A DNA stretch of 64,000 bases from a virus: IMG/VR virus record IMGVR_UViG_3300023174_000152, positions 1 to 64,000 of that record. One strand, 5' to 3'. This document shows positions 1 through 15,854 of this stretch, piece by piece; positions within the stretch are counted from its first letter, which is position 1; the number at the start of each line of letters is the position of its first letter. The position numbers were made by a program, and so were the translations under genes. The notes beneath the pieces were generated by a model. It did no database searches. It was not told the origin of the DNA and saw nothing but the letters and a program-made list of their open reading frames with translations.

Positions 1-295
1 TGTCAGATCCTTAAACACGTGATGATACCATTTATCATTTCGACATAGACAGACAGTGATGCATTATTATATTCCCAGGTAGTATTAGTAAAATCCTGGG
101 GCCACTCACTGCTATGTTTAGCCACACTAGATCGATCCGAGTATACGGTAGTTTTCTAGTCACTGGCAACCCTAATCGGTCTGGGCTAGTCCCTGTGCTC
201 TGTATGATCGGCCTGAACAGCTGACCCTCTTCATCACCGGACGAATACGAGCATCAACACAGACTCCGCATAATCGTAAGCGGAACATATACTGA
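1..295. other. No gene recognised
   Basis: No convincing coding region, tRNA or terminator is seen before the first tRNA. The only open frames are short ones antisense to the tRNA region. The stretch may be the 3' part of a tRNA or RNA region that starts to the left of the window. Confidence 0.4.
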
Positions 296-369
296 CGCGG
301 AGTATAGAAACGGTATCTTACCAGTCTCATAAGCTGGTGTTGGGGGTTCGATTCCCTCCTCCGCAACCA
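296..369 (+). tRNA. tRNA-Met (CAT), initiator-like
   Basis: The cloverleaf folds by eye. The acceptor strand CGCGGAG pairs with CTCCGCA except for a C1 x A72 mismatch, the hallmark of bacterial initiator tRNA. The anticodon CAT sits in a 7-base loop on a CCAGT/GCTGG stem. The T arm is GGGGG-TTCGATT-CCCTC, and CCA is encoded at 367-369. The D stem has A11-T24, also typical of initiators. The three consecutive G-C pairs at the base of the anticodon stem, normal in initiators, are missing. It could therefore be a diverged initiator or an elongator with a chance mismatch. It is followed after 4 bases by tRNA-Gly. Confidence 0.88.
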
Positions 370-373
370 ACGT

Positions 374-447
374 GCAGGATTAGTTTAGTGGTAAAACGAG
401 AGCCTTCCAAGCTCACGTCATCAGTTCGATTCTGATATCCTGCTCCA
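374..447 (+). tRNA. tRNA-Gly (TCC)
   Basis: The acceptor arm GCAGGAT/ATCCTGC pairs fully. The anticodon loop is CTTCCAA with anticodon TCC, reading GGA/GGG codons. The T arm is ATCAG-TTCGATT-CTGAT, the discriminator is T, and CCA is encoded at 445-447. The outermost anticodon-stem pair looks mismatched (A-A). It lies 4 bases after tRNA-Met, so the two are probably processed from one transcript. Confidence 0.92.
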
Positions 448-703
448 GAACGTGCTGTGTAGCAACAGCTAGTCCGACCCAGACGATCGAAGTGGTGTAG
501 CACCCACGGGTGGTAGTCTTTGAACCGAAAGGCCGCTGGCAATGCGTGAACGGACCCTGCGTGTAGCGGGAACATTAACGACCTTAGATTATCCTGCTGA
601 GGGACCGGAAGCCGATGGGTGGATGGGAATATGTGAAACCAACCAGGATGTCGTTGTGTATTGACCGCCGAGGGTCGCAGAGCATTTTTATAAGGAGAAT
701 AGC
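448..703 (+). other. Untranslated stretch between tRNA-Gly and the omega gene
   Basis: No credible ORF is seen on either strand; the 127-codon minus frame runs across both tRNAs and is treated as a shadow. Small inverted repeats occur (for example near 453-470 and 505-520) but no recognised RNA fold. The last bases hold a good ribosome site (AAGGAG, 692-697) for the next gene. A TTGACC at 661-666 has no well-spaced -10 box. Confidence 0.4.
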
Positions 704-931
704 ATGGCAAGGATCACTTCAGAAAAAGCAGTAGAACAAGTAGGTAATCGTTATGACTTGGTGTTGATCGCCAGTCGTCGAGCACGTGAACTCAAGCATA
801 ACTATGCTCCTCACATTAACACCGATGATAGTTATACTGTCAAAGCCATACGAGAAATAGAACAAGGTCACATTGGCAGAGACTATCTTTTAAAGAGCCA
901 AGACATTGACCGCAAACGTACAAAATCTTAG
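704..931 (+). CDS. rpoZ: RNA polymerase omega subunit homologue
   Basis: A 75-residue protein whose N-terminus MARIT..AVEQVGNRYDLV and central RRAREL and AIREIEQG segments match the omega subunit of bacterial RNA polymerase. Omega binds the beta-prime C-terminus and aids assembly of the enzyme. The part after RRAREL (NYAPHIN...IREIEQGHIG) resembles the short betaproteobacterial omega more than the 91-residue E. coli protein. A strong ribosome site AAGGAG precedes the ATG. The likely role is to join or replace host omega and so alter host polymerase during infection, which is an inference. Omega is rarely encoded by phages. The next ORF starts 31 bases downstream. Confidence 0.86.
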   Translation: MARITSEKAVEQVGNRYDLVLIASRRARELKHNYAPHINTDDSYTVKAIREIEQGHIGRDYLLKSQDIDRKRTKS

Positions 932-962
932 TTTTTTACCAAAAGAGATATATACACATATT

Positions 963-1397
963 ATGTTGTCATTCATACGTGAACTTACCGATCCACTGTT
1001 AGATTATCTCAAAGACGACCCTGTGCGTCCTGAGATCCCTCGTGAGTTCCGTGTAAGCGGACAACGATTTGTTTCGGCCCTGATAGAAGAAAAACCACGT
1101 GCCATGGTCTGTGTGAGCCTGCACGATTTTGTTCCTGCCACTGTGGAAGACCTTGCACGTGATCCCAGCGAACCTGACACTGCCATATTCTACACTATCT
1201 GGAGCTATGTTCCTGGTGCCGCAGGCGAACTGCTGTTTGCCACAGTTGATGAAATACGTCGGCAGTTTCCCACTGTGAAACGTTTTGTCACGCTGAGTCC
1301 AAAGACCGAAATGGCTCGTAGATTCCACATCAAAAATGGTGCTCAGGTACTGAAAGAAAATACAGATACCGTGAACTACGAATACATAATAGCATGA
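963..1397 (+). CDS. GNAT-fold acyltransferase-like protein
   Basis: A 144-residue protein. The ATG at 963 is chosen over an upstream in-frame TTG because the first residues after it (MLSFIREL) look like a normal start and a purine-rich AAAAGAGA lies before it. The C-terminal part (FVTLSPKTEMARRFHIKNGA) resembles the last strands of GNAT acetyltransferases, where a residue string ending in F-x-x-x-N-G-A is common. The acetyl-CoA loop (R/Q-x-x-G-x-G/A) is not clear, so activity is uncertain. Its stop overlaps the next start (ATGA), which indicates translational coupling. The substrate is unknown. Confidence 0.55.
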   Translation: MLSFIRELTDPLLDYLKDDPVRPEIPREFRVSGQRFVSALIEEKPRAMVCVSLHDFVPATVEDLARDPSEPDTAIFYTIWSYVPGAAGELLFATVDEIRRQFPTVKRFVTLSPKTEMARRFHIKNGAQVLKENTDTVNYEYIIA

Positions 1398-1561
1398 GCA
1401 AGTTCACAGACACTCTAAAAGCCGCGCTAGAGAAAAAACATGCCGCGGCACATCCTGACACCAAGTCAGATACCAAAGAGGACAGCAAGTCCAAACCCAA
1501 GCGATCACCACCGGTGATCACAGGAAAACCAGTCAAGAAAGTCACTGGACGCGGCCGTTAA
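1394..1561 (+). CDS. Small basic protein of unknown function
   Basis: A 55-residue ORF too short for most gene callers. It starts at an ATG overlapping the previous stop by four bases (ATGA) and ends just before a strong promoter. It is rich in Lys, Ser, Pro and Asp (KHAAAHPDTKSDTKED, then KPKRSPP and a terminal GRGR), looks unfolded, and could bind nucleic acid through its basic tail. No family is recognised. The coupled start and clean end support it as a gene. Confidence 0.6.
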   Translation: MSKFTDTLKAALEKKHAAAHPDTKSDTKEDSKSKPKRSPPVITGKPVKKVTGRGR

Positions 1562-1566
1562 AACGG

Positions 1567-1595
1567 TTGACATCTAACTCCTTTTCTGGTATAAT
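1567..1595 (+). promoter_or_regulatory. Consensus sigma70 promoter
   Basis: TTGACA (1567-1572), 17 bp, TATAAT (1590-1595): both hexamers are perfect consensus. Transcription should start near 1602 and drive the metallophosphoesterase gene, whose ribosome site AAAGGAGG lies at 1611-1618. Confidence 0.9.
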
Positions 1596-1623
1596 ATAAT
1601 GTTAAATCAGAAAGGAGGGCACT

Positions 1624-2214
1624 ATGCCTAGCGTATTTTTAGTCAGTGACACGCACTTTGGCCACGCTGGTGTGTGCCGCTTCGTTCGCAATGATGGGGT
1701 CACGAAGTTACGGCCATGGGACAACGCTGACGAGATGGACGAAGAAATGGTCCGTCGTTGGAACGAACGTGTGAAACCCACAGACAAGGTTTACCATTTG
1801 GGTGACGTTGTGATCAACCGCAAGGCCCTGGGTATCATGCGCAGGCTCAACGGTGACAAGGTCTTGATCCGCGGTAACCACGATATCTTCAAAGACGAAG
1901 ACTATCGTGAACACTTCCGAGAACTTCGTGCCTACCATGTCATGAACGGAATGATCTTGAGTCACATTCCTATCCACCCTGAAAGCCTTGGTCGTTTTGG
2001 TGTAAATATCCATGGACACTTACATGCCAATCGTGTGATGAAATCCATGCCACCAGCCTACAGACCTGACATGATCGATCCACGCTATCATTGCGTTTGT
2101 GTAGAGCAAACTGACTTTGCACCAATCTTGTTTGAAGATGTGATCGCTCGTATCAAGGAAGAAGGTGGTACCATAGGTTTCACCAATGGCAACGGTCCGC
2201 AAGGAGCAGACTGA
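1624..2214 (+). CDS. Calcineurin-like metallophosphoesterase
   Basis: A 196-residue protein with all five motifs of the binuclear metallophosphoesterase fold in order: DTHFGH (D9, H11), GDV (60-62), GNHD (84-87), SHIPIH (113-118) and HGHLH (130-134). These ligate two metal ions and hydrolyse phosphoester bonds. The short single-domain form is common in phages; the substrate (nucleotide, nucleic acid end or phosphoprotein) cannot be told from sequence. It has a perfect promoter and a strong Shine-Dalgarno, so it should be highly expressed early by host polymerase. Its stop overlaps the next start by one base (TGATG). Confidence 0.92.
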   Translation: MPSVFLVSDTHFGHAGVCRFVRNDGVTKLRPWDNADEMDEEMVRRWNERVKPTDKVYHLGDVVINRKALGIMRRLNGDKVLIRGNHDIFKDEDYREHFRELRAYHVMNGMILSHIPIHPESLGRFGVNIHGHLHANRVMKSMPPAYRPDMIDPRYHCVCVEQTDFAPILFEDVIARIKEEGGTIGFTNGNGPQGAD

Positions 2215-2381
2215 TGACATATCCAAGAATCAAACTTTGGGAAGCGACCATCCGTACACCAGATGGTAAAGAGTTCAAAGATCGTGTGGGTGCTGACACA
2301 GCCGAACAGGCTCGTAGATTGCTACAAGAACGCCACGGGCCACGTGCAGTGCCATATATACCACACATGATTCCCAGCTAG
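2214..2381 (+). CDS. Small protein of unknown function
   Basis: A 55-residue ORF with its ATG sharing one base with the phosphoesterase stop, so translation is probably coupled. An AAGGAG lies 9-14 bases upstream. The N-terminus (KLWEATIRTPDGKEFKD) and a DTAEQARRLLQERHG helix look like a small alpha/beta fold of the type that reads as a beta hairpin followed by a helix. No family is named with confidence. It ends just before the inverted-repeat region at 2386. Confidence 0.6.
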   Translation: MTYPRIKLWEATIRTPDGKEFKDRVGADTAEQARRLLQERHGPRAVPYIPHMIPS

Positions 2382-2385
2382 GGTC

Positions 2386-2509
2386 GCCGGCTACCCAGCT
2401 CACTGGACCAACGCCAATAAGTGTCTATAGCGCAGTGCCGGGGTGACGATTGCCGCGAGGTAACAAGAGCCGCAGATACCATAAGTCTGCGCCGGACTGG
2501 GTAACCGGC
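2386..2509 (+). ncRNA. Candidate structured RNA closed by a 13-bp helix
   Basis: The segment is bounded by GCCGGCTACCCAG (2386-2398) and CTGGGTAACCGGC (2497-2509), which pair over 13 positions with a single C x A mismatch. Inside is a second clear hairpin, CGCAGA (2471-2476) with TCTGCG (2486-2491) and a 9-base loop, plus a possible CACTG/CAGTG pairing. It contains no credible ORF and lies in the gap between a small gene and the tRNA-Thr promoter. It does not match a tRNA, a simple terminator or a ribozyme class I recognise. It could be a regulatory RNA, a self-cleaving or splicing remnant, or a tRNA-region spacer. Confidence 0.5.
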
Positions 2510-2520
2510 AATCTTGATCG

Positions 2521-2549
2521 TTGCGATCCAAATCGGTGTAGTGTATAAT
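2521..2549 (+). promoter_or_regulatory. Sigma70-type promoter for tRNA-Thr
   Basis: TTGCGA (2521-2526), 17 bp, TATAAT (2544-2549). The predicted start falls about at the first base of the tRNA (2556-2558), so the tRNA would have almost no leader. Confidence 0.75.
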
Positions 2550-2557
2550 AACTATTC

Positions 2558-2631
2558 GCCCTTTTAGTTAAATGGTATAACAGTTGATTTGTAATCATCA
2601 GTTGGCAGTTCGATTCTGTCAAGGGGCACCA
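2558..2631 (+). tRNA. tRNA-Thr (TGT)
   Basis: The acceptor GCCCTTT pairs with AAGGGGC (one T-G pair). The anticodon loop TTTGTAA carries TGT (reads ACA). The T arm is TGGCAG-TTCGATT-CTGTCA-like, the discriminator is A and CCA is encoded at 2629-2631. One mismatch is seen in the anticodon stem (T-T). It has its own promoter, unlike the tRNA pair at the left end. Confidence 0.9.
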
Positions 2632-2650
2632 ACCAACACAAAGGAAAACC

Positions 2651-2809
2651 ATGAGACCAGGCCCAAACTTTAAAATGAGCAAACAAAGCAAGAGATTTTT
2701 GGCTACCATTATTGACCCACACCGTCGCGGTGAAATCAAACGTGGCACTGTACAAGCAGAACTGTCAGGCCAACAACAAGTGCGCCAACCTCGTGGCGAT
2801 AGAAAATAA
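2651..2809 (+). CDS. Small conserved-looking phage protein
   Basis: A 52-residue ORF with AAGGAAA before its ATG. It is strongly basic: PGPNFKMSKQSKRFLAT, then HRRGEIKRGTVQAEL and a basic end. The style is like small proteins found next to tRNAs in T4-like aquatic phages, but no function is known to me. It is followed after one base by the next ORF, so they form a pair, possibly cotranscribed with tRNA-Thr. Confidence 0.6.
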   Translation: MRPGPNFKMSKQSKRFLATIIDPHRRGEIKRGTVQAELSGQQQVRQPRGDRK

Positions 2810-2810
2810 C

Positions 2811-3044
2811 ATGCCCATACCCGGCTGGGACGATCGCTGGGCTCTCTACAATCGAGTGATCCGTTGGGATCTCGTATTTGCCATATGGCCACGGCGTTGC
2901 AAAATAACTGATCGTAAGATATGGCTGGAATGGTGTTACCGAGGCAATATTTTTATCACAGGTCCTGGAGATCCAGTGGATGAATACGAATATCTTACCA
3001 AAGAATCTTTTATAGTAGAAAGACTAGCAGGCCGTATTAAATAA
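2811..3044 (+). CDS. Hypothetical protein
   Basis: A 77-residue protein. The ATG at 2811 directly follows the previous stop and is preferred to an upstream in-frame ATG that would overlap the neighbouring gene by about 100 bases. It is rich in aromatic residues (GWDDRWALYNRVIRWD, KIWLEWCYRG) with a YRGNIFITGPGDPVDEYEYL segment. No family is recognised. It lies immediately before the oxygenase-like gene. Confidence 0.55.
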   Translation: MPIPGWDDRWALYNRVIRWDLVFAIWPRRCKITDRKIWLEWCYRGNIFITGPGDPVDEYEYLTKESFIVERLAGRIK

Positions 3045-3048
3045 TGGC

Positions 3049-3621
3049 ATGCTACACACAGATCAAGCACAGATACTAGGACCGGGTCTTTGGTATCTGC
3101 CTCAAGTTTTTGACAGCACAACCTATCGGGAAATACGTCGATGTTATCGTGAGACTGCCACAGGTTGGCAATGTCTCGTCCCCAACAGGCTCATGAGCCT
3201 GCCCAACAATCCAGACTACCACTATCTAGCCGAAGTGGCACAGGACATCAACCTCGCTGTCAGCGAACTCACCGGGCACCAACTACGCCCACTCAATCAA
3301 GAAATATTCATAGACCTTCCAGGACATCAACTCTCCTGGCATTTTGACTCAGACAACTATCAAGTCCTACTACAAGTTTACTGTGGCGACACAGCACAGC
3401 CCAACATGGGAACACAATGGTATGTGGGTGATAAAAACCCTACATTATTCGCCCAGCACGGTGTGGATTCCATCGTAGATGTAAAAGGATTAAATACAGT
3501 TGAAACTGCGTATGCACCCAACGCAGGTTATATCAACGACAACACTGTCAAAAAAGCACACGGAACACGGCGTGTGGCGGCAGGACTCAGCAGAGAAAGC
3601 GTTTTGTTTACTTTTGGCTAA
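3049..3621 (+). CDS. 2-oxoglutarate/Fe(II) oxygenase-like protein
   Basis: A 190-residue protein with the layout of the prolyl-hydroxylase/2OG-Fe(II) dioxygenase double-stranded beta-helix. The iron-binding HxD is at H98-F-D100 (LSWHFDSDNY), the distal histidine is H171 (KKAHGTRR), and an arginine suited to binding 2-oxoglutarate lies 11 residues on (R182, GLSRESVLFTF). This family hydroxylates amino acids, proteins, sugars or nucleic acids. Phages of aquatic bacteria often carry several uncharacterised members. The spacing of the facial triad agrees with the family; the substrate is unknown. A second, distinct member is at 8395. Confidence 0.75.
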   Translation: MLHTDQAQILGPGLWYLPQVFDSTTYREIRRCYRETATGWQCLVPNRLMSLPNNPDYHYLAEVAQDINLAVSELTGHQLRPLNQEIFIDLPGHQLSWHFDSDNYQVLLQVYCGDTAQPNMGTQWYVGDKNPTLFAQHGVDSIVDVKGLNTVETAYAPNAGYINDNTVKKAHGTRRVAAGLSRESVLFTFG

Positions 3622-3638
3622 AAAAACAGCCTGCTGTG

Positions 3639-3668
3639 TTGACTCTTGCTAAGTAATCCTGTTACAAT
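3639..3668 (+). promoter_or_regulatory. Sigma70-type promoter for the porin
   Basis: TTGACT (3639-3644), 18 bp, TACAAT (3663-3668). Predicted transcription start is near 3675; the ribosome site GAAAGGA lies about 7 bases before the porin ATG. Confidence 0.8.
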
Positions 3669-3708
3669 AACTCAGTTACACAGTAACAACTTTCGAAAGG
3701 AAAAATAA

Positions 3709-4866
3709 ATGTTTAAAAAATCTGTTATCGCAGTAGCATTGTTGGCGGCCGCCGCAGGCACTGCCCTAGCACAATCTAATCTCTCTTCAGGAGTGCAGAT
3801 CTATGGTATCATGGACGCAGGTGTTGTGTCTGCAACCAATGTTGGTTCAGCCAACAGCCGTATTACCGCTTTCAACAGCGGTGTTGACCAAACCAGCAGA
3901 TTGGGCTTCCGGGCCACAGAAGATCTAGGTGGTGGACTCAAAGCAGGTGCTGTGCTAGAAAATCAAGTCGATCTTGGCAACGGATCGCAAGGTCTTTCAG
4001 CTGGATCAGGTGCTGCCAATGCTGTGTTCAGCCGTGGCGCCAACATCTTCCTGGAACATGGAACTTACGGTAAGATCACTCTAGGTCGTCAAGCCAATGC
4101 GGCTTGGGGCACCTATCAACAGTTTGATGGTCGCAACAACTCAAACTTTGGCTCAGTGACCAACATCATCAATGACGGTTCTAGCTTTGGTGGTACTTCC
4201 ACAGCCAAGACTGGTATTGCTTCACTCACAGGTACTTCATGGTTCAACAATGCCATCCGCTATGACACTCCAAAATGGAACGGTGTCAATGCCACATACG
4301 CTCGAGTATTTGGTAACACAGCCGGTGACATTGATTTTGGCAAAGCTGATCAGTATGTGTTGCGCTACGACAACAATGGTTCAGTGTTTGGTGCACTAGG
4401 TTACTACTCAGCCAACAACTCTACTGGTGTTGAAACTGCTCGCACTAAGTGGTATGGTGCTGGCTACCGCGCTACCAAAGATTTGACATTGACAGCTAAC
4501 CTGTTCCAGATGGAAAATCCTAGTAGCACAGCGGCCAATACCAAGTTTGACTTGAAGTCAATCGGTGCTCGCTATCAGATCAACGGTAAGTGGTATGCCA
4601 ATGCTGGCTACTATATGTTGGACGACAAAGTTACTTCTACCAATGGTATGAAGATGACTTCTGCTTCGTTGAACTATGATCTCAGCAAGCGTACTTCGTT
4701 GTTCTTTGGTGTGTCTAAGAGCACAGTTGACGGAACCACAGGTATTTCAGCCTGGGGCAACGGTGGCGGTGCCAACTATGACAGCCTGGGGCAGTCAGCT
4801 AACAAACTAGGCGCTCAAGGTCAAGACCAAACAGCCTATGCTGTATCCATGCGTCATTCGTTCTAA
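3709..4866 (+). CDS. Gram-negative outer-membrane porin
   Basis: A 385-residue protein of the Burkholderiales-type general porin family. It has an N-terminal signal peptide (MFKKSVIAVALLAAAAGTALA, cut before Q) and the opening strand SSGVQIYGIMDAGV. Further motifs are TSRLGFRATEDLGGGLKAG, FLEHGTYGKITLGRQ, alternating beta strands, and a final AVSMRHSF ending in Phe as needed for BAM-dependent insertion. Full length matches a 16-strand trimeric porin. It has its own promoter and a terminator 23 bases after its stop. It stands next to two genes for organic-acid uptake, so it may widen entry of small anions during infection. Its source is probably a host genome. Confidence 0.93.
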   Translation: MFKKSVIAVALLAAAAGTALAQSNLSSGVQIYGIMDAGVVSATNVGSANSRITAFNSGVDQTSRLGFRATEDLGGGLKAGAVLENQVDLGNGSQGLSAGSGAANAVFSRGANIFLEHGTYGKITLGRQANAAWGTYQQFDGRNNSNFGSVTNIINDGSSFGGTSTAKTGIASLTGTSWFNNAIRYDTPKWNGVNATYARVFGNTAGDIDFGKADQYVLRYDNNGSVFGALGYYSANNSTGVETARTKWYGAGYRATKDLTLTANLFQMENPSSTAANTKFDLKSIGARYQINGKWYANAGYYMLDDKVTSTNGMKMTSASLNYDLSKRTSLFFGVSKSTVDGTTGISAWGNGGGANYDSLGQSANKLGAQGQDQTAYAVSMRHSF

Positions 4867-4888
4867 TCTCAGAACTTGATAACCAAAA

Positions 4889-4919
4889 ACACACAGGCAA
4901 CCACCTGTGTGTTTTTTTT
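4889..4919 (+). terminator. Rho-independent terminator after the porin
   Basis: A 9-bp perfect stem ACACACAGG/CCTGTGTGT with a 6-base loop, followed by eight T residues (4912-4919). It ends only 5 bases before the tctA start codon. Confidence 0.92.
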
Positions 4920-4924
4920 GACCT

Positions 4925-6262
4925 ATGATTGACATATTATCTTTTGCACTATTAGGCAGCCTGGCCGGAGTGGTAGTTGGCTTGGTGCCCGGAATCGGTC
5001 CAGCACAACTGCTGGCCATTGCTTACTTGGCTTTGCTGTCCATGGATCCTGTACAGTTGGCTGTGTTCTACATTGGCTTGATCACTGCCAGTCAGTATCT
5101 CGATTCCGTGCCAGCCACATACTTTGGTGTGCCCGGGGAAACCAGTGCTGTTCCAGCCAGCTACGAAGGTCCACGACTCATGGCCCAAGGGCTGGGCCAA
5201 CAAAGTATCAGACTCACTGCCATTGGAAGACTTGTCGCCAGCATGATCGCTGTGGGGCTAGGTTTGGCCTTGCTGGGCGTGATCATGCAAAGCACTTGGA
5301 TATTCAAAAACAATGTTCAACTGGTGTTGCTGGCACTGGCGTTGTTGGGTGTGGCCATCACTAGCCAATGCAACTGGTGGAAAACCATGATTGCCATGAC
5401 TTTAGGCTATGTGATAGGCAAAATAGGATTTGATTACACTACCGGTCAAGATGTACTGACCTTTGGTATAGCCCAACTGCAAGAAGGTGTTCCACTGATA
5501 TCAGTGTTGATGGGTATCTATGTTGTTCCGTTGTTGTTGGTAGAACTAAAAAAATCAATACGGTTAGATCGTGCTTCTGTGCCAGCACAGCAGACCAGCA
5601 TGGATGTGCGTCCTTATGTTCCTGTGATGTTGCGTAGCAGTATCCTGGGATGGTTCCTGGGTCTAATACCAGGATTGAGTTACATACTCAGCGCCACTGG
5701 GTGTTATGCCTATGAAAAGTGGCAACGTATCAAACATTCATTGTATCGTCCTGGTGACATGCACACCATTGTGGCCGCAGAAACAGGCAACACCAGTGGT
5801 GCTTTCAGTACCATGATACCTTTGATGATTTTTGGCATACCGATCACTATATCTGAAACCATACTGTACAATGTCATGGTTACCAATGGTGCAGATTTCA
5901 GTAGAGGTACGTTTTTATATGCCAACTATCCGTGGTTACTGGGTGCATTTGCAATGGCCAATGTGATTGGTTTGATTTTTTGCTGGCCCATGGCCATGCA
6001 TATGGCTCGCTGGGTGCGCAAAATAAATCTCCGGATGACCTGGATCTCTATAATTATTGTTGTCTTGTTTGGAGTGATATGGCAAGGCTATTATAATCAA
6101 ATGCTATTGCTGTATCTTGTTGTATTTGTTATAATGATACTATGTGGTTTGATCTGCTTGCGATATAAAATAGATCTATTACCAGTGTTGTTTGTTTTCC
6201 TGCTACAGGGCAACATTGATCAAGCAGTTTTCAATCTGTGGCAGATATATTTTAAAGGGTAA
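4925..6262 (+). CDS. tctA: TctA-family permease of a tripartite tricarboxylate transporter
   Basis: A 445-residue, very hydrophobic protein with the paired signatures of the TctA family: GSLAGVVVGLVPGIGPAQ at the N-terminus and GWFLGLIPGLSYILSATG near residue 240. It also has AAETGNTSGAFSTMIPL and FGIPIT, typical of the substrate-site region. TctA is the large membrane subunit (about 500 residues, 12 helices) that imports citrate or other carboxylates with a periplasmic binding protein. The start lies straight after the porin terminator and has no Shine-Dalgarno, so expression must come from read-through or a weak start. The small subunit TctB is not seen nearby; the host may supply it. It is followed 2 bases later by the binding protein. 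Confidence 0.88.
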   Translation: MIDILSFALLGSLAGVVVGLVPGIGPAQLLAIAYLALLSMDPVQLAVFYIGLITASQYLDSVPATYFGVPGETSAVPASYEGPRLMAQGLGQQSIRLTAIGRLVASMIAVGLGLALLGVIMQSTWIFKNNVQLVLLALALLGVAITSQCNWWKTMIAMTLGYVIGKIGFDYTTGQDVLTFGIAQLQEGVPLISVLMGIYVVPLLLVELKKSIRLDRASVPAQQTSMDVRPYVPVMLRSSILGWFLGLIPGLSYILSATGCYAYEKWQRIKHSLYRPGDMHTIVAAETGNTSGAFSTMIPLMIFGIPITISETILYNVMVTNGADFSRGTFLYANYPWLLGAFAMANVIGLIFCWPMAMHMARWVRKINLRMTWISIIIVVLFGVIWQGYYNQMLLLYLVVFVIMILCGLICLRYKIDLLPVLFVFLLQGNIDQAVFNLWQIYFKG

Positions 6263-6264
6263 AA

Positions 6265-7161
6265 ATGCTTAAGATTTATGCGTTAATGTTATCAATGTTT
6301 TTGATCGCGGGAGCACAGGCCAACCCACGTCAGATCTCTGTGATATATTCCAGTCCTCCTGGAGGACTGATAGACAGTCAGAACAAAGCCATGCAAGAAC
6401 ATCTTGAAAAAAACAACTGGCGGGTAGAAGCTGTACGAGCTCCCAACTGTAGAGCTGCCAAGACCTGGTTAGATGGCAATCCTGGCAAACCGGCTGTGAT
6501 GGCGTTCCAAGTAGAAGAAGATGCTTACAATCGCATAGCACCTGGTGCTGCCGATGCCTGCGGCATGGAGATCACGCAACGGTCTGTGTCAGCGATCAGC
6601 ATATCTAATCACTATCTAGTGTGTAGCATGTTGCCTCCGGACAAGGCCTTGCCAAAGTTCCTAGCTGGTGGTAATCGAGTTGGTGTGACATTCTTTGCCA
6701 GCACCAATGTCATTGTTGCTGAAAGTCTAGTTAGATCAATGAATCTCAAGGACACCAAGGTCTTGAGATTCCAAGGACAGCCCAAACTCACACAGGCCTT
6801 GGTCAGTGGCGATGTGGATTTCACTGTCAACACCAATGCCAGCAGTATCACCAGTGCTGGTGGTCAGTGCTTCTTAAGCACCGCGCCAAAGAATATAGCA
6901 GAAAAGAACGGATGGAAGAGTATAGCTGAGTTTGATCCTAAGAATCCTTGGATTGGCAGTGGACAGATGTATGTGTATCTAGCATTTAACACTGACCGTC
7001 AGACCATTGCACGGGATACTGTGGAACTGATCAAAACTCATCCTATCTTGATTGACATTTATAAAAACAATGCCTATCGTGATGGAATAGCTGCCGGGCA
7101 AACTGAAGAACAACAATGGAAAACCATCACTAATCACATCAACCGATATCTAGCCAAATGA
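6265..7161 (+). CDS. tctC: TctC/Bug-like periplasmic solute-binding protein
   Basis: A 298-residue protein with a signal peptide (residues about 1-19, ending AGAQA). The mature start has the family-like pattern PRQISVIYSSPPGGLIDSQN, where TctC proteins normally have a P-x-x-P-G-G-x-x-D segment contacting the ligand. Later VGVTFFASTNVIVAESL and ALVSGDVDFTVNTNAS fit the second lobe. It would capture a carboxylate in the periplasm and deliver it to the TctA protein encoded immediately upstream. It contains more cysteines than usual (positions around 62, 100, 130, 195), which could form disulfides. It overlaps the next gene by 4 bases (ATGATG). Confidence 0.78.
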   Translation: MLKIYALMLSMFLIAGAQANPRQISVIYSSPPGGLIDSQNKAMQEHLEKNNWRVEAVRAPNCRAAKTWLDGNPGKPAVMAFQVEEDAYNRIAPGAADACGMEITQRSVSAISISNHYLVCSMLPPDKALPKFLAGGNRVGVTFFASTNVIVAESLVRSMNLKDTKVLRFQGQPKLTQALVSGDVDFTVNTNASSITSAGGQCFLSTAPKNIAEKNGWKSIAEFDPKNPWIGSGQMYVYLAFNTDRQTIARDTVELIKTHPILIDIYKNNAYRDGIAAGQTEEQQWKTITNHINRYLAK

Positions 7162-8393
7162 TGCAATACCCCAAATTCATTCCCGACGGAAAGTTCAATC
7201 ACTTTGGATTCTTCCGTGTGGGTGATGAATGTTTCTATAGCAAACTAGATGCTGTGCATCACAGCATAGCCACCGGCCACGAAGTCGAATGGGATTTCAA
7301 CAATCAGCTGTTTGAATCCTTGGACTGGAAAACAGAACCCACAGAATCTATCCAAGAGTTGTATCGCCAACGTGCCCAACAGATCCGAGATCGCTATGAC
7401 TATGTTGTTGTAATGTTTAGCGGAGGATGTGACAGCACCTGTGTGCTTGACAGTTTCATCGACAATGACATACATGTAGACGAGGTATTCCATCTGCACA
7501 CACTGGATGGGCATAAGGGCAACATGCATGCCTTTATGACCGCAGAAACATTTCATTTAGCCATTCCGCATGCTTTGGAAAAACTTAAAAAGTGTCCCAA
7601 CACACGTTTTACTTTGCATGACAACAGTGACTGGGAACGGCAAAATCTCAAAGATCCTTATGTGAGAGAATATGCCTGGCGAGCTTTCAATAACATACAC
7701 AATCTAGCTATGACTGGATTTTATCACAGTCCTACCGTGGGATTCCATCGTAGATTCCAGCACTGGCGAGATATCCAAGACAGTGGTAGAACTATGTGTT
7801 TTGTCATAGCCGAGGCCAAACCTAACTTAACCTTAGATAAAGAAACAGGTAAACACTATTACACCGTCATGGATCACTACGCTTCACAACCTAGTCCGCA
7901 TACACAATGGGTCAATGATCCCAAAGAAAACTACGAAAACTTTTTCCTACAACCTGACTTGCCTGAGCTCATGATCAAACAAGCTCATCTTTGCTTGAAT
8001 GCAGTTCGTGACATAGACAGCGAACCAAATAAGTTTTGGCGATACAAAGAAACTCCAAAAAATGTGATTAGTCCCTGGGGATTTGAAGCCACTGATCCAA
8101 GATACTCGCCGGTGTTTACAATCAAGGACGGTGTTGATTATATGATGACGTACGAGGATTTTCATAAAATGGTTTATCCCAGTCACAAATCTGGGTACAC
8201 ACAATGGAAACAAAAAGGTCGCGCGGTACATCCATGGCATCAATGGTTAGCTGAAGAAATGCCAGCAGAAGCCAAGGATTGGTACAAAGCATACATTTCA
8301 ACATACTCTCAACTCCCTGACAGTTGGACCCAACATCGTGGCGGTCTAGAACAGAACATAGCTCGTCTTGAAATAAAATATTTTGTTGAATAA
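7158..8393 (+). CDS. PP-loop (adenylating) ATPase
   Basis: A 411-residue protein with the ATP-pyrophosphatase loop SGGCDS (VVVMFSGGCDSTCVLDSF, about residues 83-100). This loop is used by enzymes such as asparagine synthetase, PAPS reductase-like proteins, QueC and tRNA thiolases to activate a substrate by adenylation. The rest (about 300 residues) does not match one I can name. It contains many His, Trp and Tyr and a PFxxxxxSP-like string. It may adenylate a carboxylate or amide for transfer to another molecule. It is in one operon with the transporter upstream and an oxygenase and SDR downstream. Confidence 0.75.
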   Translation: MMQYPKFIPDGKFNHFGFFRVGDECFYSKLDAVHHSIATGHEVEWDFNNQLFESLDWKTEPTESIQELYRQRAQQIRDRYDYVVVMFSGGCDSTCVLDSFIDNDIHVDEVFHLHTLDGHKGNMHAFMTAETFHLAIPHALEKLKKCPNTRFTLHDNSDWERQNLKDPYVREYAWRAFNNIHNLAMTGFYHSPTVGFHRRFQHWRDIQDSGRTMCFVIAEAKPNLTLDKETGKHYYTVMDHYASQPSPHTQWVNDPKENYENFFLQPDLPELMIKQAHLCLNAVRDIDSEPNKFWRYKETPKNVISPWGFEATDPRYSPVFTIKDGVDYMMTYEDFHKMVYPSHKSGYTQWKQKGRAVHPWHQWLAEEMPAEAKDWYKAYISTYSQLPDSWTQHRGGLEQNIARLEIKYFVE

Positions 8394-8394
8394 C

Positions 8395-8988
8395 ATGTTT
8401 ACACACTTATCATTGTCACTGCCGTTACCGCCACAGGCCCTTGTAGATCAGCTGGTATCATATCACCAAGATCAAAAACTTGCATGGGATCCAGCTCAAC
8501 GAGAAAGATTTAAAAAACACGAAACTGGCTACTTGGAAAGAAAACTAACATGGCAGAATCAAGAGTATCAAACTAGAGTTCAATACAGATACGTTTTACC
8601 GCAAGAAATTTTACAGTGGATAGATGATCATTTTCCCAAGGACTATCTTGCCGCAAGTCTGGCAGTAAGCTCAGGACAAGGTCCTTTGCACGGCCCGCAT
8701 ATTGATTTTAACAGGCACTATATATTCTATCTAAGTTTGGACACAGGTGGCCAAGATGTTACTACTAGTTTTTGGCGAAGGCCCAACAATCCTGTTGAGT
8801 TTCTCAGTCCAGAATGGCCCGGTACATCTCAGGACTATCCCGGATTGGAACACATAGAGTCTGTGGTACTTCAACCCAACCAATGGTATGTACTCAATGG
8901 ATGGGTGTATCACAGTGTAGAAAATATGACTGGCACAAGACTCAGTCTGCAAGTTGATTACGATCGCATAAATCTCACAGTCAAATGA
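8395..8988 (+). CDS. 2OG-Fe(II)/cupin-type oxygenase-like protein
   Basis: A 197-residue protein. The ATG at 8395 follows the previous stop by one base and is used rather than an upstream in-frame TTG. Features of a double-stranded beta-helix oxygenase are H102-x-D104 (GPHIDFNRHYIFYLSL), distal H173 (LNGWVYHSVEN) and R182 (TGTRLSLQVDY). These are spaced as in aspartyl-hydroxylase-like and phage 2OG enzymes. It differs from the oxygenase at 3049 outside the motif. It ends overlapping the SDR gene by 4 bases (ATGA), so it probably acts in the same pathway as the PP-loop protein and the SDR. Confidence 0.68.
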   Translation: MFTHLSLSLPLPPQALVDQLVSYHQDQKLAWDPAQRERFKKHETGYLERKLTWQNQEYQTRVQYRYVLPQEILQWIDDHFPKDYLAASLAVSSGQGPLHGPHIDFNRHYIFYLSLDTGGQDVTTSFWRRPNNPVEFLSPEWPGTSQDYPGLEHIESVVLQPNQWYVLNGWVYHSVENMTGTRLSLQVDYDRINLTVK

Positions 8989-9590
8989 AACTAGGCATCA
9001 CCGGAACCAGTCAAGGACTAGGACAACATCTCAAACAAGTGTTTGAACACCACGGCCACGAAGTGTTAGAGTTTAATCGTAGCAACGGATATGACATCAA
9101 ACAACCACAGCGTATTGTTGATGCTGTCCAAGACTGTGAACTGTTTATCAACAATGCCTACGATGGGTATGGACAAGTAGATCTGTTGTATGCGCTCGTT
9201 GACCGTTGGGAACACAAAGAAAATCGTTTTATCATCAACATAGGTAGTGAACAAACACGGCGCTGGACCAATCACATGGCTGAAGGTATAACGCCGTTTG
9301 ATTGGCGTGAAGGACAACGTGCTATCAACTATCGCACACACAAACTCAGCCTAACTGAAGCCACGCACTATCTGTATCAAATGGTCACATGGCCACAGCT
9401 CATGTTGGTTGACATTGGCATGCTCGATACACAGCCTGCGGGCTATTGGAGTCGACACAGAAAGAATCGAGAACCGGTACGATGTGAGGACGCGGCTAGA
9501 TTGATCTACAACTGTTTTGATCAACGACATTTGCACTTTGTCAGCGAACTAGCAATACGCCCGCTGAACTTTGCTCCTAAAAACCCTTGA
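8985..9590 (+). CDS. Short-chain dehydrogenase/reductase (SDR)
   Basis: A 201-residue classical SDR, slightly short. It has the nucleotide-binding GTSQGLG (7-13), NNAYDG (56-61, in place of NNAG), a candidate catalytic serine in NIGSEQ (S88) and YxxxK (Y116, K120 in INYRTHK). It would oxidise or reduce a hydroxyl/keto group with NAD(P). It is the last gene of the tctA-tctC-PP-loop-oxygenase operon, and its stop codon lies inside the terminator stem. Confidence 0.88.
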   Translation: MKLGITGTSQGLGQHLKQVFEHHGHEVLEFNRSNGYDIKQPQRIVDAVQDCELFINNAYDGYGQVDLLYALVDRWEHKENRFIINIGSEQTRRWTNHMAEGITPFDWREGQRAINYRTHKLSLTEATHYLYQMVTWPQLMLVDIGMLDTQPAGYWSRHRKNREPVRCEDAARLIYNCFDQRHLHFVSELAIRPLNFAPKNP

Positions 9591-9607
9591 AATACAAGGG
9601 TTTTTTT
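9581..9607 (+). terminator. Rho-independent terminator after the SDR gene
   Basis: Stem AACCCTTG/CAAGGGTT with a short AATA-type loop and seven T residues. It overlaps the last codons of the SDR gene. Confidence 0.9.
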
Positions 9608-9633
9608 GTGGCTTTTTTACAACACAACAAAGG

Positions 9634-9662
9634 TTGACCAGAAACAGCCGTCATGCTATACT
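9634..9662 (+). promoter_or_regulatory. Sigma70-type promoter
   Basis: TTGACC (9634-9639), 17 bp, TATACT (9657-9662). It drives the 83-residue gene that starts with GTG at 9696. Confidence 0.8.
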
Positions 9663-9695
9663 ATAGGCTAAGTTAAACAAAACAGGAGCCCTACT

Positions 9696-9947
9696 GTGAA
9701 ATCACTCAAAGCCTATGTAGATCAAAAGAATCAGTGGAATGCTATCTTTGGTGGCAAGCCTTTGGTCATTGGTCGAGACAATCAACGCATCGCCGACATG
9801 ATCGACGGTGATCTTTCTCCAGAAAATCTCACTTGCGATGGCGAACTGCCTCGCAGTCAAGTTCAAGCTCGTTACCGCCAGCTCACTGCCGCGGCCACAG
9901 AACTCCGTCGTCTAGATCCCACAGTGAAGTTTTATGAGTTTTCTTAA
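9696..9947 (+). CDS. Hypothetical phage protein
   Basis: An 83-residue protein starting with GTG, preceded by AGGAG at 9683-9687. It has a mixed alpha/beta look: a helix at KSLKAYVDQKNQW, a G-G-K-P-L-V-I-G-R turn, and a charged helix near the end (SQVQARYRQLTAAATELRRL). No known motif is seen. It sits alone between two promoters, so it is a single-gene unit, suggesting an early takeover protein. That role is inferred only from layout. Confidence 0.7.
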   Translation: MKSLKAYVDQKNQWNAIFGGKPLVIGRDNQRIADMIDGDLSPENLTCDGELPRSQVQARYRQLTAAATELRRLDPTVKFYEFS

Positions 9948-9949
9948 GG

Positions 9950-9978
9950 TTGACGCAGAAATCAACTTCGCATACAAT
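9950..9978 (+). promoter_or_regulatory. Sigma70-type promoter for the MoxR-like gene
   Basis: TTGACG (9950-9955), 17 bp, TACAAT (9973-9978). The preceding bases (AAGG) match those before the 9634 promoter. Confidence 0.8.
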
Positions 9979-10010
9979 AGTAGAATCATCAACAAAAAGG
10001 ACCAAGCCCT

Positions 10011-11105
10011 ATGTCATTTGAACATCGCACCGTAACCGCGGTTGGTGCCCGCAAAGCCATCAAAAAGTGTTTCGCTAAAAAGCGTCCGCTGTTCCTCTGG
10101 GGTCCTCCCGGTATCGGCAAAAGTGAAGTGGTAGCAGATATCACTCGTGAACTCGGTGGTCTCATGATCGACCTCCGTTTGGGCCAAATGGACCCTACCG
10201 ACATCCGTGGTATTCCGTTCTACAACAGAGACAAAAACGTCATGGACTGGGCTCCTCCTATCGACTTGCCTGATACAGAAACTGCTGGTCAGTATCCTGT
10301 TGTGGTATTGTTTATGGACGAGATGAACTCGGCGCCTCCGGCTGTACAGGCCGCGGCCTATCAGCTCGTGTTGAACCGTCGTGTTGGCAAGTATATACTG
10401 CCCGACAATGTGGTGCTGGTTGCCGCTGGTAACCGTGAATCAGACAAAGGTGTTACCTATCGTATGCCTACTCCGTTGGCAAACCGTTTTGTCCACTTGG
10501 AGATGCGAGTTGACTTCCCTGTATGGCAAGAGTGGGCCGTGAGCAATGGTATCCACAAAGACGTTGTGGGTTACTTGAGTTTTGCCAAGCAGGACCTCTA
10601 CGACTTTGATGCCAAGAGTGCAAGTCGTTCGTTCGCTACTCCACGTTCTTGGACTTTCGTCAGCGAGCTGTTGGCAGACGAAGACGTAGATGAGACCACT
10701 TACACCGATCTGATTGCAGGTGCTGTGGGTGAAGGCCTTGCTGTGAAGTTTATGGCGCATCGCAAGATTGCAGGCAAAATGCCCAAGCCCGAAGACATCT
10801 TGTCGGGCAAGGTCAAGGATCTGCAGATCAAAGAAGTCAGTGCCATGTACTCTTTGGTGATCTCTATGTGCTATGAGCTCAAAGGTGCCATCGAGCGCAA
10901 GATTCCAGACAAAGAGTTCCATGCTATGTCTGACAACTTCTTTGCCTACATGATGGCGAACTTTGAAACTGAGCTCGTGGTCATGGGTGCCCGTATTGCA
11001 CTGACCACATACAATCTTCCGTTCCAGCCTACCAAGCTCAAGAACTTTGACGAGTTCCATCAGCGGTATGGCAAGTACATCCTGAGCGCAAGCCAGAATG
11101 CCTGA
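10011..11105 (+). CDS. MoxR-type AAA+ ATPase
   Basis: A 364-residue AAA+ ATPase with Walker A GPPGIGKS (31-38), Walker B VVVLFMDEMN (97-106), and an AAGNRESDKG sensor-1 segment followed by MPTPLANRFVHL (arginine finger). MoxR-family ATPases work as chaperones with VWA-domain partners, inserting metal or remodelling complexes; exactly such a partner lies at 11782. It has its own promoter and an AAGGA ribosome site, and ends in two hairpins. It is probably a phage-encoded remodelling machine acting on a host or virion complex. The target is unknown. Confidence 0.88.
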   Translation: MSFEHRTVTAVGARKAIKKCFAKKRPLFLWGPPGIGKSEVVADITRELGGLMIDLRLGQMDPTDIRGIPFYNRDKNVMDWAPPIDLPDTETAGQYPVVVLFMDEMNSAPPAVQAAAYQLVLNRRVGKYILPDNVVLVAAGNRESDKGVTYRMPTPLANRFVHLEMRVDFPVWQEWAVSNGIHKDVVGYLSFAKQDLYDFDAKSASRSFATPRSWTFVSELLADEDVDETTYTDLIAGAVGEGLAVKFMAHRKIAGKMPKPEDILSGKVKDLQIKEVSAMYSLVISMCYELKGAIERKIPDKEFHAMSDNFFAYMMANFETELVVMGARIALTTYNLPFQPTKLKNFDEFHQRYGKYILSASQNA

Positions 11106-11113
11106 TAGGTCAA

Positions 11114-11199
11114 GGGTTGGGTCCACTATCGGTAACGAGACATAGGGCTATGTCGGATCCAACCCATCTTTTTGATCAACCACCCGTAAGGGTGGTTTT
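11114..11199 (+). terminator. Tandem hairpins after the MoxR-like gene (terminator or regulatory RNA)
   Basis: First element: GGGTTGGGTCC (11114-11124) pairs with GGATCCAACCC (11155-11165), enclosing a 6-bp hairpin GACATA/TATGTC stacked against it, and is followed by CTTTTT. Second element: AACCACCC-GTAA-GGGTGGTT (11178-11197), an 8-bp stem with a GNRA tetraloop followed by TTTTC. Both look like terminators, but they overlap the likely start of the next ORF, so they could instead control its translation. Confidence 0.6.
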
Positions 11200-11389
11200 C
11201 GCACCCTACAGTCACAGCGATGTCCAAGACATGTTGCGAAAAGTAGTGCAAGACTTTGGTCGTCCCGGATCTAGATGGCGGTATCGTAGCCCTGACATAG
11301 GTCAAGCAGAAAACAATGTTTGGCAGTTAGATTTCCATTTCCGTGATCCGCATGATGCAGTCATATTCGGCCTTAAATATCAACGATGA
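11150..11389 (+). CDS. Small hypothetical protein (start uncertain)
   Basis: A frame of up to 79 residues from the ATG at 11150, with in-frame GTG (11192) and ATG (11231) alternatives. None has a clear Shine-Dalgarno, and both hairpins described at 11114-11199 overlap the first part. The C-terminal portion (HSDVQDMLRKVVQDFG, YRSPDIGQAENNVWQLDFHF, DAVIFGLKY) has good protein character and ends with the motif DAVxFGLKY that recurs in the next gene as LTLFQLKYP. The two are therefore probably related small phage proteins. Confidence 0.55.
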   Translation: MSDPTHLFDQPPVRVVFAPYSHSDVQDMLRKVVQDFGRPGSRWRYRSPDIGQAENNVWQLDFHFRDPHDAVIFGLKYQR

Positions 11390-11739
11390 AATACAAGATA
11401 GTCAAACTCGATGGTCGCTGGAGTTACAGAAAATACTTTGAGTATGCTGTGATTTTTTCTGGCCGCATGAGTAACAGCCAAGGACCCATGCAGTTTGCTG
11501 AAGCTCAAAAGTATTTCTTTGACATCTATGGCTGGAGTGCCGAGATCCGCCAATGGGCCGACATCAAAGAATACACCGCAAACATTTTCAAATACATTGG
11601 GCCGAACCCACCGCCAAAGATGCCCGAGTGTGTGAACCCGTATTGGAGTTGGACCAATGGTTATGAAGACCTGCGTATCTACGTGAAAAGCCCGCAAGAA
11701 CTCACGCTTTTCCAGCTGAAATATCCGGTTGACCAATAA
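11386..11739 (+). CDS. Hypothetical phage protein
   Basis: A 117-residue protein overlapping the previous stop by 4 bases (ATGA). It is rich in aromatic residues (WSYRKYFEYAVIF, YWSWTNGYEDLRIYVK) and ends LTLFQLKYPVDQ, like the end of its upstream neighbour. No motif of known function is seen. The next promoter begins inside its last codons (TTGACC at 11729). Confidence 0.65.
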   Translation: MKYKIVKLDGRWSYRKYFEYAVIFSGRMSNSQGPMQFAEAQKYFFDIYGWSAEIRQWADIKEYTANIFKYIGPNPPPKMPECVNPYWSWTNGYEDLRIYVKSPQELTLFQLKYPVDQ

Positions 11740-11757
11740 TCCATTTTCCTGTATAAT
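11729..11757 (+). promoter_or_regulatory. Sigma70-type promoter for the VWA gene
   Basis: TTGACC (11729-11734), 17 bp, TATAAT (11752-11757). The sequence before it (CCGG) and the hexamers closely match the other promoters of this half. AAGGAG lies 7 bases before the ATG at 11782. Confidence 0.85.
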
Positions 11758-11781
11758 ATAAGATATAGTTAAGGAGCACTT

Positions 11782-13068
11782 ATGTCTACAAAAACCGCAA
11801 CTTCCACGCAAAACAAAGACGACGCTAAAAAGTTCGCCAATCTGATTGGACCCATGGATCCAAAGTTAGACAAGATTGTGCGTGAGAAACTGGTCACTGC
11901 CCGTGTGGGACTGTTACTCCGTGCTTCATTTTTTGGCAATCTTGCTACTCGCCTGAAGCTGGTCAATGCCGACGAGTGGTGTGCCACTGCCGCCACAGAC
12001 GGACGTCATTTCTACTACAATAGTCGCTTCATTGAACTGCTCAAACCCAAAGAGATTGAGTTCTTGTTTGGGCATGAAGTCTTGCATTGTGTATATGATC
12101 ACTTCGGTCGTCGTGGAGATCGCGACCCGCAGTTATTCAATATCGCCAATGACTTCTGCGTCAATGCAGATTTGAAGAAACATCGTGTAGGCGAGTTTAT
12201 TACTTCGGTGCCTTGCTTGTATGATTCAAAGTTTGAAGGCAAGAGCTCTGAAGAGATCTATGATATTTTGTATGAGAATGCAGAAAAAATCAGTCTCAGC
12301 GATCTTATCGACAAGTTACTAGACGAGCATTTGGATGGCGAAGGTGACGGAGATGGGTCAGATAGCCAGGATGGCGACAAGCCCGGCAAAGGACGTCCCA
12401 AGCTGTCAGCAGAAGAGCGTCAAAAGATCCGCGATGAAATCAAGGAAGCCATGTTGGCGGCCGCACAAGCGTCAGATGCAGGATCGATTCCGTTGGGCGT
12501 CAAACGTCTGATCAGTGATCTCACCGATCCTAAGATGAACTGGCGTGAACTGCTCCGTATGCAGTTAGAGTCAACCATCAAGAGTGACTACACTTGGATG
12601 AAAACTAGCCGTCGTGGCTGGGACATGGATGCTGTGATGCCTGGTATGAATCGTACTGACGCCATTGACATCGCTGTGTACATCGACATGTCAGGCTCCA
12701 TTGGAGAAGCTCAAGGCAAAGATTTCCTTAGCGAAGTCAAAGGTATCATGGAATCGTTTGAATCTTACAAGATCCATGTCGCTTGTTTTGATACCGAAGT
12801 GTACAACCTGCAACAATACAACTCAGAAAATCTTGATTCAATCGAAGACTACGAGTTAGCCGGTGGCGGTGGTACTGATTTTGATTGCATCTTCAAGCAC
12901 TTGAAAGACGAACAAATCGAACCCAAGCGTCTGGTAGTATTCACTGATGGTTATCCATGTGGTAGCTGGGGTGACCCCAACTACTGTGATACTGTATGGA
13001 TCATCCATGGTGACAAGAATCCCAACCCACCCTTTGGTACGTTCGCCCTGTACGAGGAGGACAAATAA
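11782..13068 (+). CDS. VWA-domain protein with HExxH metallopeptidase-like N-domain
   Basis: A 428-residue protein that looks like the metallopeptidase/VWA family often paired with MoxR. Its N-terminal half carries FLFGHEVLHCVYDHF with HEVLH at 98-102, the zinc-peptidase signature. An acidic, low-complexity linker (GDGDGSDSQDGDK) follows. The C-terminal half has a VWA metal-ion site DMSGSIG (about 302-308), GGGGTDFD and FTDGYP. It is the expected partner of the MoxR-like ATPase at 10011, although it has a separate promoter. Its role may be ATP-driven remodelling or cleavage of a protein target. The HExxH is intact, so catalysis is possible but unproven. Confidence 0.85.
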   Translation: MSTKTATSTQNKDDAKKFANLIGPMDPKLDKIVREKLVTARVGLLLRASFFGNLATRLKLVNADEWCATAATDGRHFYYNSRFIELLKPKEIEFLFGHEVLHCVYDHFGRRGDRDPQLFNIANDFCVNADLKKHRVGEFITSVPCLYDSKFEGKSSEEIYDILYENAEKISLSDLIDKLLDEHLDGEGDGDGSDSQDGDKPGKGRPKLSAEERQKIRDEIKEAMLAAAQASDAGSIPLGVKRLISDLTDPKMNWRELLRMQLESTIKSDYTWMKTSRRGWDMDAVMPGMNRTDAIDIAVYIDMSGSIGEAQGKDFLSEVKGIMESFESYKIHVACFDTEVYNLQQYNSENLDSIEDYELAGGGGTDFDCIFKHLKDEQIEPKRLVVFTDGYPCGSWGDPNYCDTVWIIHGDKNPNPPFGTFALYEEDK

Positions 13069-13194
13069 ATGACCTTTGTGAACTTCTTATACCTTGCGGC
13101 AGGGTTTTGGTTGGGTTGGTTTATTGGTCAACCCATCATAGACTTTATTCCCAAACTTATTCGTGAGATTCGTGAAACACGCTGGAGGCAGTAA
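13069..13194 (+). CDS. Small single-span membrane protein
   Basis: A 41-residue ORF placed exactly between two stop/start junctions (it starts one base after the VWA stop and ends one base before the next ATG). A GAGGA ribosome site lies in the VWA gene end. Residues about 4-24 (VNFLYLAAGFWLGWFIGQPII) form one hydrophobic helix, followed by a basic, cytoplasmic-type tail (KLIREIRETRWRQ). The function is unknown; a membrane anchor or regulator of the VWA/MoxR pair is possible. Confidence 0.65.
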   Translation: MTFVNFLYLAAGFWLGWFIGQPIIDFIPKLIREIRETRWRQ

Positions 13195-13536
13195 ATGAAA
13201 TGGTTTGATCGATACTTGTACCGCAAACTTCGCGATATGTGGGACAACAAAGAAAAGTACAATCACTATCTTGAGGATGACGGTAGCATTCCTGTTAGTA
13301 AAATGAGAGGTGCAAGCATGGGACTGGTAGCAGTGGCAGAAGACTCAGTGGGTTGGGAAGACGGCCTGCGTATCAATGTCAAAAAAGTCATCGGTGGATT
13401 CATCGTAAGTTTCCGAAGCTATGATCGCAAAACAGATCGTAACAATGAGCGGCATTACATCATCACTGACGATCAAGAGTTTGAAAAAGAACTAGGCAAG
13501 TTCATTACTTTAGAATCAATGCGGCAAACAGGATGA
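13195..13536 (+). CDS. Hypothetical protein
   Basis: A 113-residue protein that starts directly after the previous stop (TAAATG). It has an N-terminal basic helix (RYLYRKLRDMWDNKEKY) and a beta-rich middle (LVAVAEDSVGWEDGLRINVK, IGGFIVSFRSYD). It then has YIITDDQEFEKELGKFI near the end. No known family; the style suggests a small cytosolic phage protein cotranscribed with the VWA gene. Confidence 0.7.
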   Translation: MKWFDRYLYRKLRDMWDNKEKYNHYLEDDGSIPVSKMRGASMGLVAVAEDSVGWEDGLRINVKKVIGGFIVSFRSYDRKTDRNNERHYIITDDQEFEKELGKFITLESMRQTG

Positions 13537-13877: not shown

Positions 13878-13920
13878 AATAAAGATCAAAAAGGTAAAAC
13901 TGATCTAAAACCTTTTCTAC

Positions 13921-13943
13921 AACCGCCGCAAAGGCGGTTTTTT
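13921..13943 (+). terminator. Rho-independent terminator
   Basis: A 7-bp stem AACCGCC/GGCGGTT with loop GCAAA, followed by TTTTTT. It closes the VWA operon. Confidence 0.9.
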
Positions 13944-13989
13944 CTTGGCATAAACTACGTCTATTTCTTTTTTGCCATTAAATAGATGT

Positions 13990-14205: not shown

Positions 14206-14207
14206 CA

Positions 14208-15851: not shown

Positions 15852-15854
15852 ATC

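Follow-up and report, generated by a model that had tools for sequence, protein, structure and literature searches.

A clade of uncultured huge phages with its own RNA polymerase omega subunit, apparently diverging at the ppGpp-binding site

Results

The omega gene of the window

The analysed DNA (the window, 64,000 bases, corresponding to bases 1-64000 of a linear IMG/VR record of 72,065 bases) encodes a genuine RNA polymerase omega subunit at positions 704-931. The protein family itself is known; what appears to be new, as far as the sequences indicate, is an uncultured clade of huge phages that has its own omega and diverges where ppGpp binds. We consider it fairly probable that this protein serves as a drop-in omega of the host polymerase, for most of the clade probably with an altered ppGpp Site 1. 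The features of the region are listed in Table 1.

Table 1. Features of the omega region of the window
Feature	Position	Strand	Evidence
tRNA-Met (CAT), end of phage tRNA array	296..369	+	ARAGORN, Rfam RF00005
tRNA-Gly (TCC)	374..447	+	ARAGORN, Rfam RF00005
RNA-A 5' domain, covarying structured RNA between tRNA-Gly and omega	446..578	+	covariance model R1
RNA-A probable 3' domain, pairing less certain	579..690	+	conserved in L003, L004, L005, L007
Shine-Dalgarno AAGGAG, 6 nt before ATG	692..697	+	read directly; conserved in L003, L004, L007
Phage rpoZ, RNA polymerase omega subunit, 75 aa	704..931, stop included	+	TIGR00690, PF01192, PDB sequence and fold matches, dN/dS
Conserved neighbour, 144 aa, weak malonyl-CoA decarboxylase C-terminal domain match	963..1397	+	PF05292 4e-8; neighbourhood clustering
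Perfect sigma70-type promoter TTGACA-17-TATAAT, ahead of phosphoesterase, not omega	1567..1595	+	12 of 12
Phage phosphoesterase	1624..2214	+	phrog_547 2e-49; neighbourhood clustering

The product scores above the curated cut-offs of NCBIfam TIGR00690 rpoZ (E 1e-14, 54.2 bits, cut-off 23.6) and Pfam PF01192, RNA_pol_Rpb6 (E 9e-14, 51.6 bits, cut-off 26). Only rpoZ/Rpb6 models exceed their cut-offs, with no homology to modifiers of the sigma, anti-sigma or DksA type, and PHROGs contain no noteworthy family for this protein. Comparison with PDB sequences matches it to E. coli omega (E 1e-11). An AlphaFold2 model (pLDDT 82.8), for which 19 phage sequences were aligned, has the omega chains of E. 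coli polymerase as its best Foldseek PDB matches, with TM about 0.75. The phage omega gene proposed in the initial annotation is thus confirmed, and so are the details given with it: the conserved omega N-terminus (here MARITSEKAVEQVGNRYDLVL) and the REIE segment (within AIREIEQG) are both present in the translation, and the start codon, ATG, is preceded by a strong ribosome site. The gene had also been called complete. This holds for the conserved domain, which is whole, but the tail is shorter than the variable C-terminal tail of the 91-aa E. coli omega; in its short tail the window protein resembles betaproteobacterial omegas, which have about 66-73 aa.

Compared with four relatives having 77-84% protein identity, the window omega differs mostly at third codon positions. 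The dN/dS values are 0.09 (L003), 0.16 (L004), 0.08 (L005) and 0.16 (L007), all of them rough because dS is at or above 1. The gene is under purifying selection in the range 0.08-0.16, which rules out a decayed pseudogene; the mutant pattern of decay, named at the outset as one observation that would count against omega, was looked for in these values and was absent.

Genomic context

Phage baseplate, tail and virion proteins are encoded at 39-64 kb of the window. The omega gene follows two tRNA genes and precedes the phosphoesterase gene. The host omega copies inspected for comparison have the arrangement gmk-rpoZ-spoT; this order is not observed at the window omega, which lies between the tRNAs with the adjoining RNA-A and a phage gene cluster. 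Among the genes near phage omegas a phosphoesterase is the most frequent, at 51 loci, followed by a phosphatase-like protein, at 49; both share the strand of omega throughout, and relatives of the conserved 144-aa neighbour lie close to omega in 19 loci.

Omega-bearing IMG/VR contigs include records of 316, 323, 344 and 367 kb. Each of the 29 records searched contains exactly one omega. The terminase large subunit TerL was found in seven of the 29, including the 316-367 kb ones; omega records with no TerL match are fragments, or would require another model. The 344-kb record has a TerL that shares 53% identity with PA5oct-like Pseudomonas jumbo phages and 42-53% with Phosso, Atu_ph07, CBB and GAP32. 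Judged by sequence, the omega phages belong in the T4-superfamily jumbo-phage setting (T4/PA5oct-like group).

Several other genes of the window deserve mention. Region 3709-7161 encodes a Gram-negative porin (Porin_4, 4e-36), TctA (4e-61) and a TctC-like secreted protein, the latter assigned by eye with no Pfam match; together they possibly form a tripartite tricarboxylate transporter set. Genes of the porin/TctA type were also noted in G002, G003, G005, G006 and G509, and almost nothing similar to the set was found in INPHARED. At about 23.5-34.6 kb there are at least four radical SAM proteins and a Nol-like carbamoyltransferase (23477-24964), perhaps a cluster for modification of surface sugars or the virion. 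A single ORF of 4854 aa occupies 41667-56231 on the minus strand, between virion and baseplate genes.

Distribution and phylogeny

A scan of IMG/VR yielded 83 close relatives of the window omega, the nearest being 77-84% identical. A wider pattern scan yielded 529 contigs with an omega-like match, some of which may be cellular because the pattern also fits enterobacterial omegas. By contrast, tblastn of the 50,697 deposited phage records of INPHARED produced host-like omegas only, among them those in phage-labelled records CAKLQH020000003.1, MG065691.1, MG065686.1, OR845831.1 and OR851528.1. The one match inspected, in the record of Acinetobacter phage MD-2021a, lies in the order gmk-rpoZ-spoT with pilus genes beside it, which identifies this record as mislabelled bacterial DNA; the 4.4-kb faecal record MT839270 was among the other matches. 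A phage omega had been considered rare. This is true of the deposited records, whereas among uncultured huge phages the gene is common. No description of a phage omega was found in the open-access literature, and the main text of a survey of huge phages (PMC7162821) does not mention omega.

In a tree with 68 omegas of Pseudomonadota, the phage omegas, 39 after dereplication, group in a single clade (support 100/99; recovered in 200 of 200 bootstrap trees), an outcome favoured by the sampling, as the phage sequences were chosen by similarity to the window copy. The clade is placed, weakly, beside enterobacterial omegas in a tree of 75 columns, which are too few to fix the donor. From its long stem (0.85) one can conclude only that the gene does not seem to have been acquired recently; recent theft from a host is not supported, as a long branch leads to every sampled bacterium.

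Residue pattern and ppGpp Site 1

Residues were compared, in E. coli numbering, between 103 distinct phage and 93 bacterial omegas (in a smaller set, 39 and 68). N15, R16, R26, R28 and E53 are fixed in phages (about 100%) and in bacteria, and all of them are present in the window copy. The situation is different for six other residues conserved in 98-100% of the 93 bacterial omegas. In the 103 phage proteins A2 is retained in 37%, R3 in 64%, T5 in 62%, D8 in 14%, R52 in 20%, and K45 in 8%, the last being an empirical mark, invariant in the sampled bacteria, and not a published defining feature of RpoZ. Both A2 and R3 are retained in 35 of the 103, and at least seven changes are needed to explain their presence on the tree. 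N-terminal extensions occur in 61 of the 103 proteins; many have a Shine-Dalgarno box of their own, and several contain no alternative start codon in the extended stretch.

On the other hand, A9, G14, D18, E29, E55 and Y63 are newly fixed in phages, with E29 in 100% and Y63 in 97% of the 103 sequences. The phage-specific tail is G-R-E/D-Y-L-x-K, in which, among the 39 dereplicated omegas, G60 and R61 are each conserved in 92% and K66 in 87%. Betaproteobacterial omegas have a related tail, G-x-E-M-L-K-K.

In E. coli, omega residues 2-5 coordinate phosphates at ppGpp Site 1 and ppGpp no longer binds there once they are deleted (PMC7676912). The 3' terminal phosphate of ppGpp is bound by the main chain of residues A2, R3 and V4 (PMC10191844). 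Site 1 controls elongation, backtracking and repair and is reported to be dispensable for the stringent response (PMC10191844). With the core fixed and the N-terminus varied, it follows that the part expected to hold omega on the polymerase is constrained, whereas the N-terminus facing ppGpp is unconstrained or changed. Site 1 of the polymerase is probably altered by most members of the phage omega clade. The loss of K45, R52 and D8 could have causes other than ppGpp.

The window copy has A2-R3-I4-T5 (MARIT), in agreement with the proteobacterial Site-1 N-terminus A2-R3-(V/I)4-T5, and R52; K45 (replaced by S) and D8 are absent. It represents a conservative branch of the phage omegas and may still form Site 1.

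Structured RNA upstream of omega

About 250 bases between tRNA-Gly and omega (RNA-A) align in L003, L004, L005 and L007 and contain hairpins with compensatory changes. Folding of the single sequence was no better than that of shuffles (z 0.46), and it was the covariation test that revealed the structure. In the 5' domain 96.5% of cells are paired, with 66 two-sided changes, in an alignment that leans towards the model; none of 500 shuffles had pairing as high, and all slid controls were far lower. The 5' model strongly matches L037, L048 and L072, none of which were used in its construction.

Of 33 long records, 13 contain RNA-A. A loose DNA pattern of 14 bases brought up 80 contigs, 36 of them with a convincing copy. 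It occupies 446-690 in the window, 7739-8000 in L003, 3644-3828 in L037 and 3706-3844 in L072, with further copies in other records. In L037 and L038 it lies about 4 to 7 kb from omega. Since it does not always adjoin omega, RNA-A is better explained as an independent RNA belonging to the tRNA array; a leader of the omega gene is the less likely reading. It is a new structured RNA of huge-phage tRNA arrays, with no Rfam match in the window or in the other carriers.

The arrays of the nearest relatives contain 21-31 tRNA and tmRNA genes. The tmRNAs are of the beta/permuted phage type (L003 6103-6479, L004 5455-5851, L005 6449-6862, L007 6611-6909), which points to betaproteobacterial hosts, and the tags in the relatives are ANDEQFVLAA, ANDEVYALAA and ANDELYALAA. 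GOLLD RNA was found in L005, L028 and L037. A second nearly invariant non-coding block of about 110 nt, with no Rfam match over it, precedes tRNA-Thr (window about 2395-2515, L003 about 9130-9250, L005 about 10105-10220); it is conserved in L003, L004, L005 and L007.

Promoters

The scan of positions 1-18000 detected 42 promoter-like sites, compared with 30.5 +/- 5.4 in shuffles, and no promoter match directly ahead of omega. The initial annotation described the sigma70 promoters of this half of the window as very clean; one site is indeed perfect, but the overall enrichment is mild. A change of promoter choice caused by omega, suggested on the same grounds, is not borne out, as the sites are only mildly more frequent than in shuffles and none directly precedes omega.

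Discussion

Proposed role

No beta-prime domain was found in the 29 omega-phage records, and therefore the phage omega should act on the host polymerase, as had been proposed initially. On the same observation, a polymerase of the phage's own that includes omega is rejected for these records. No DksA/TraR domain was found in the 29 records, so a partner of this kind is rejected, and a sigma factor partner is likewise rejected, with only weak matches to sigma70 region 2 in two of the 29.

The proposed mechanism is as follows. Firstly, the phage omega, folded like the host one, would join the host RNA polymerase during infection by clasping beta-prime, entering in place of the host omega or beside it. 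Secondly, with its omega supplied or replaced in this way, the polymerase would remain assembled for the whole of a long infection and be controlled by the phage. Finally, in most phage omegas residues 2-5 are substituted or extended, and Site 1 would be altered or absent; such a polymerase may be less prone to pausing and backtracking driven by ppGpp. For the window copy, which retains most Site-1 residues, simple supply or replacement of the subunit is the safer claim. What the phage would gain is not obvious, since E. coli can do without its own omega and Site 1 is reportedly not required for the stringent response (PMC10191844).

A stronger form of this proposal is that the clade has repeatedly removed or masked the omega residues contacting ppGpp, leaving Site 1 of the polymerase in infected cells blind to the alarmone in elongation. 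We regard it as a tentative possibility; if true, it would be a phage route to ppGpp-blind elongation through the swap of a core-enzyme subunit.

One alternative is pure supply: omega would chaperone and stabilize the host polymerase with regulation unchanged, the residue losses being drift after release from ppGpp signalling. The retention of MARIT and R52 in the window copy is consistent with it, and so are the description of omega as a chaperone in the folding of beta-prime (PMC5811629) and the location of the gene with tRNAs, and in relatives with tmRNA, that is, with other housekeeping supplements. However, most phages have lost residues that never vary in the sampled bacteria, with the core remaining constant, extensions with their own starts recur, and drift alone leaves the new fixed residues (E29, the GREYLxK tail) unexplained. 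On balance we find this alternative rather unlikely. These same residues suggest another one, a docking handle, in which the omega swap would allow E29 and the GREYLxK-type tail to recruit a phage transcription or RNA factor to the polymerase. The residues are specific to phages and nearly fixed, but no partner was identified, and part of the tail motif may be inherited, given the related betaproteobacterial tail; this explanation seems improbable. As for a host fragment or a chimera misbinned as a virus, the window record is only a linear 72-kb fragment and its porin and TctA genes resemble bacterial ones, but phage genes flank omega, TerL-bearing records of 316-367 kb have the same arrangement, TctA recurs in six of 33 such omega-phage records, and gmk and spoT are absent here, unlike in true host copies, so that the chance of it is negligible and host contamination is ruled out by phage context and recurrence across records.

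Comparison with known systems

The phage omegas share with bacterial RpoZ (E. coli, Burkholderiales) the family, the fold and the core NR..L......R.R, and the window copy also the REIE segment and the MAR-type N-terminus. They differ in the site, the tRNA array instead of gmk-rpoZ-spoT; in forming a clade of their own; in the loss of K45 and D8 in the window copy and of Site-1 residues in most relatives; and in the gain of E29 and GREYLxK.

The T4 superfamily modifies the host polymerase by AsiA, gp33, the gp55 sigma and RpbA. The phage omega would likewise be a small phage protein attaching to polymerase, but it has no homology to these proteins, being a copy of a core-enzyme subunit and not a sigma, an anti-sigma or an inhibitor. 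The multi-subunit polymerases of the phiKZ type are another case of phage genes with relatives among the polymerase subunits of cells; phiKZ, however, brings its own catalytic subunits, whereas the omega phages, with no beta-prime domain in the 29 records, carry omega only. With TraR of the F element and DksA-like proteins the shared principle would be the change of the ppGpp response of host polymerase by a mobile element (PMC7676912). However, TraR acts at the secondary channel, and the omega phages have no DksA/TraR domain in the 29 records.

Several consequences follow. An rpoZ gene on a viral contig should not automatically be dismissed as contamination by annotation pipelines, as phage omegas are not rare in nature and are only absent from cultured phages. 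The role of Site 1 is debated, as it is reported to be dispensable for the stringent response and needed for elongation control and repair; the natural variants at residues 2-5, 45 and 52 are a ready set of omegas for probing its function. Phages are known to use sigma factors, covalent marks and inhibitors to reprogram host RNA polymerase; a family of phages that maintains a core-enzyme subunit under selection would represent a different route to the host polymerase.
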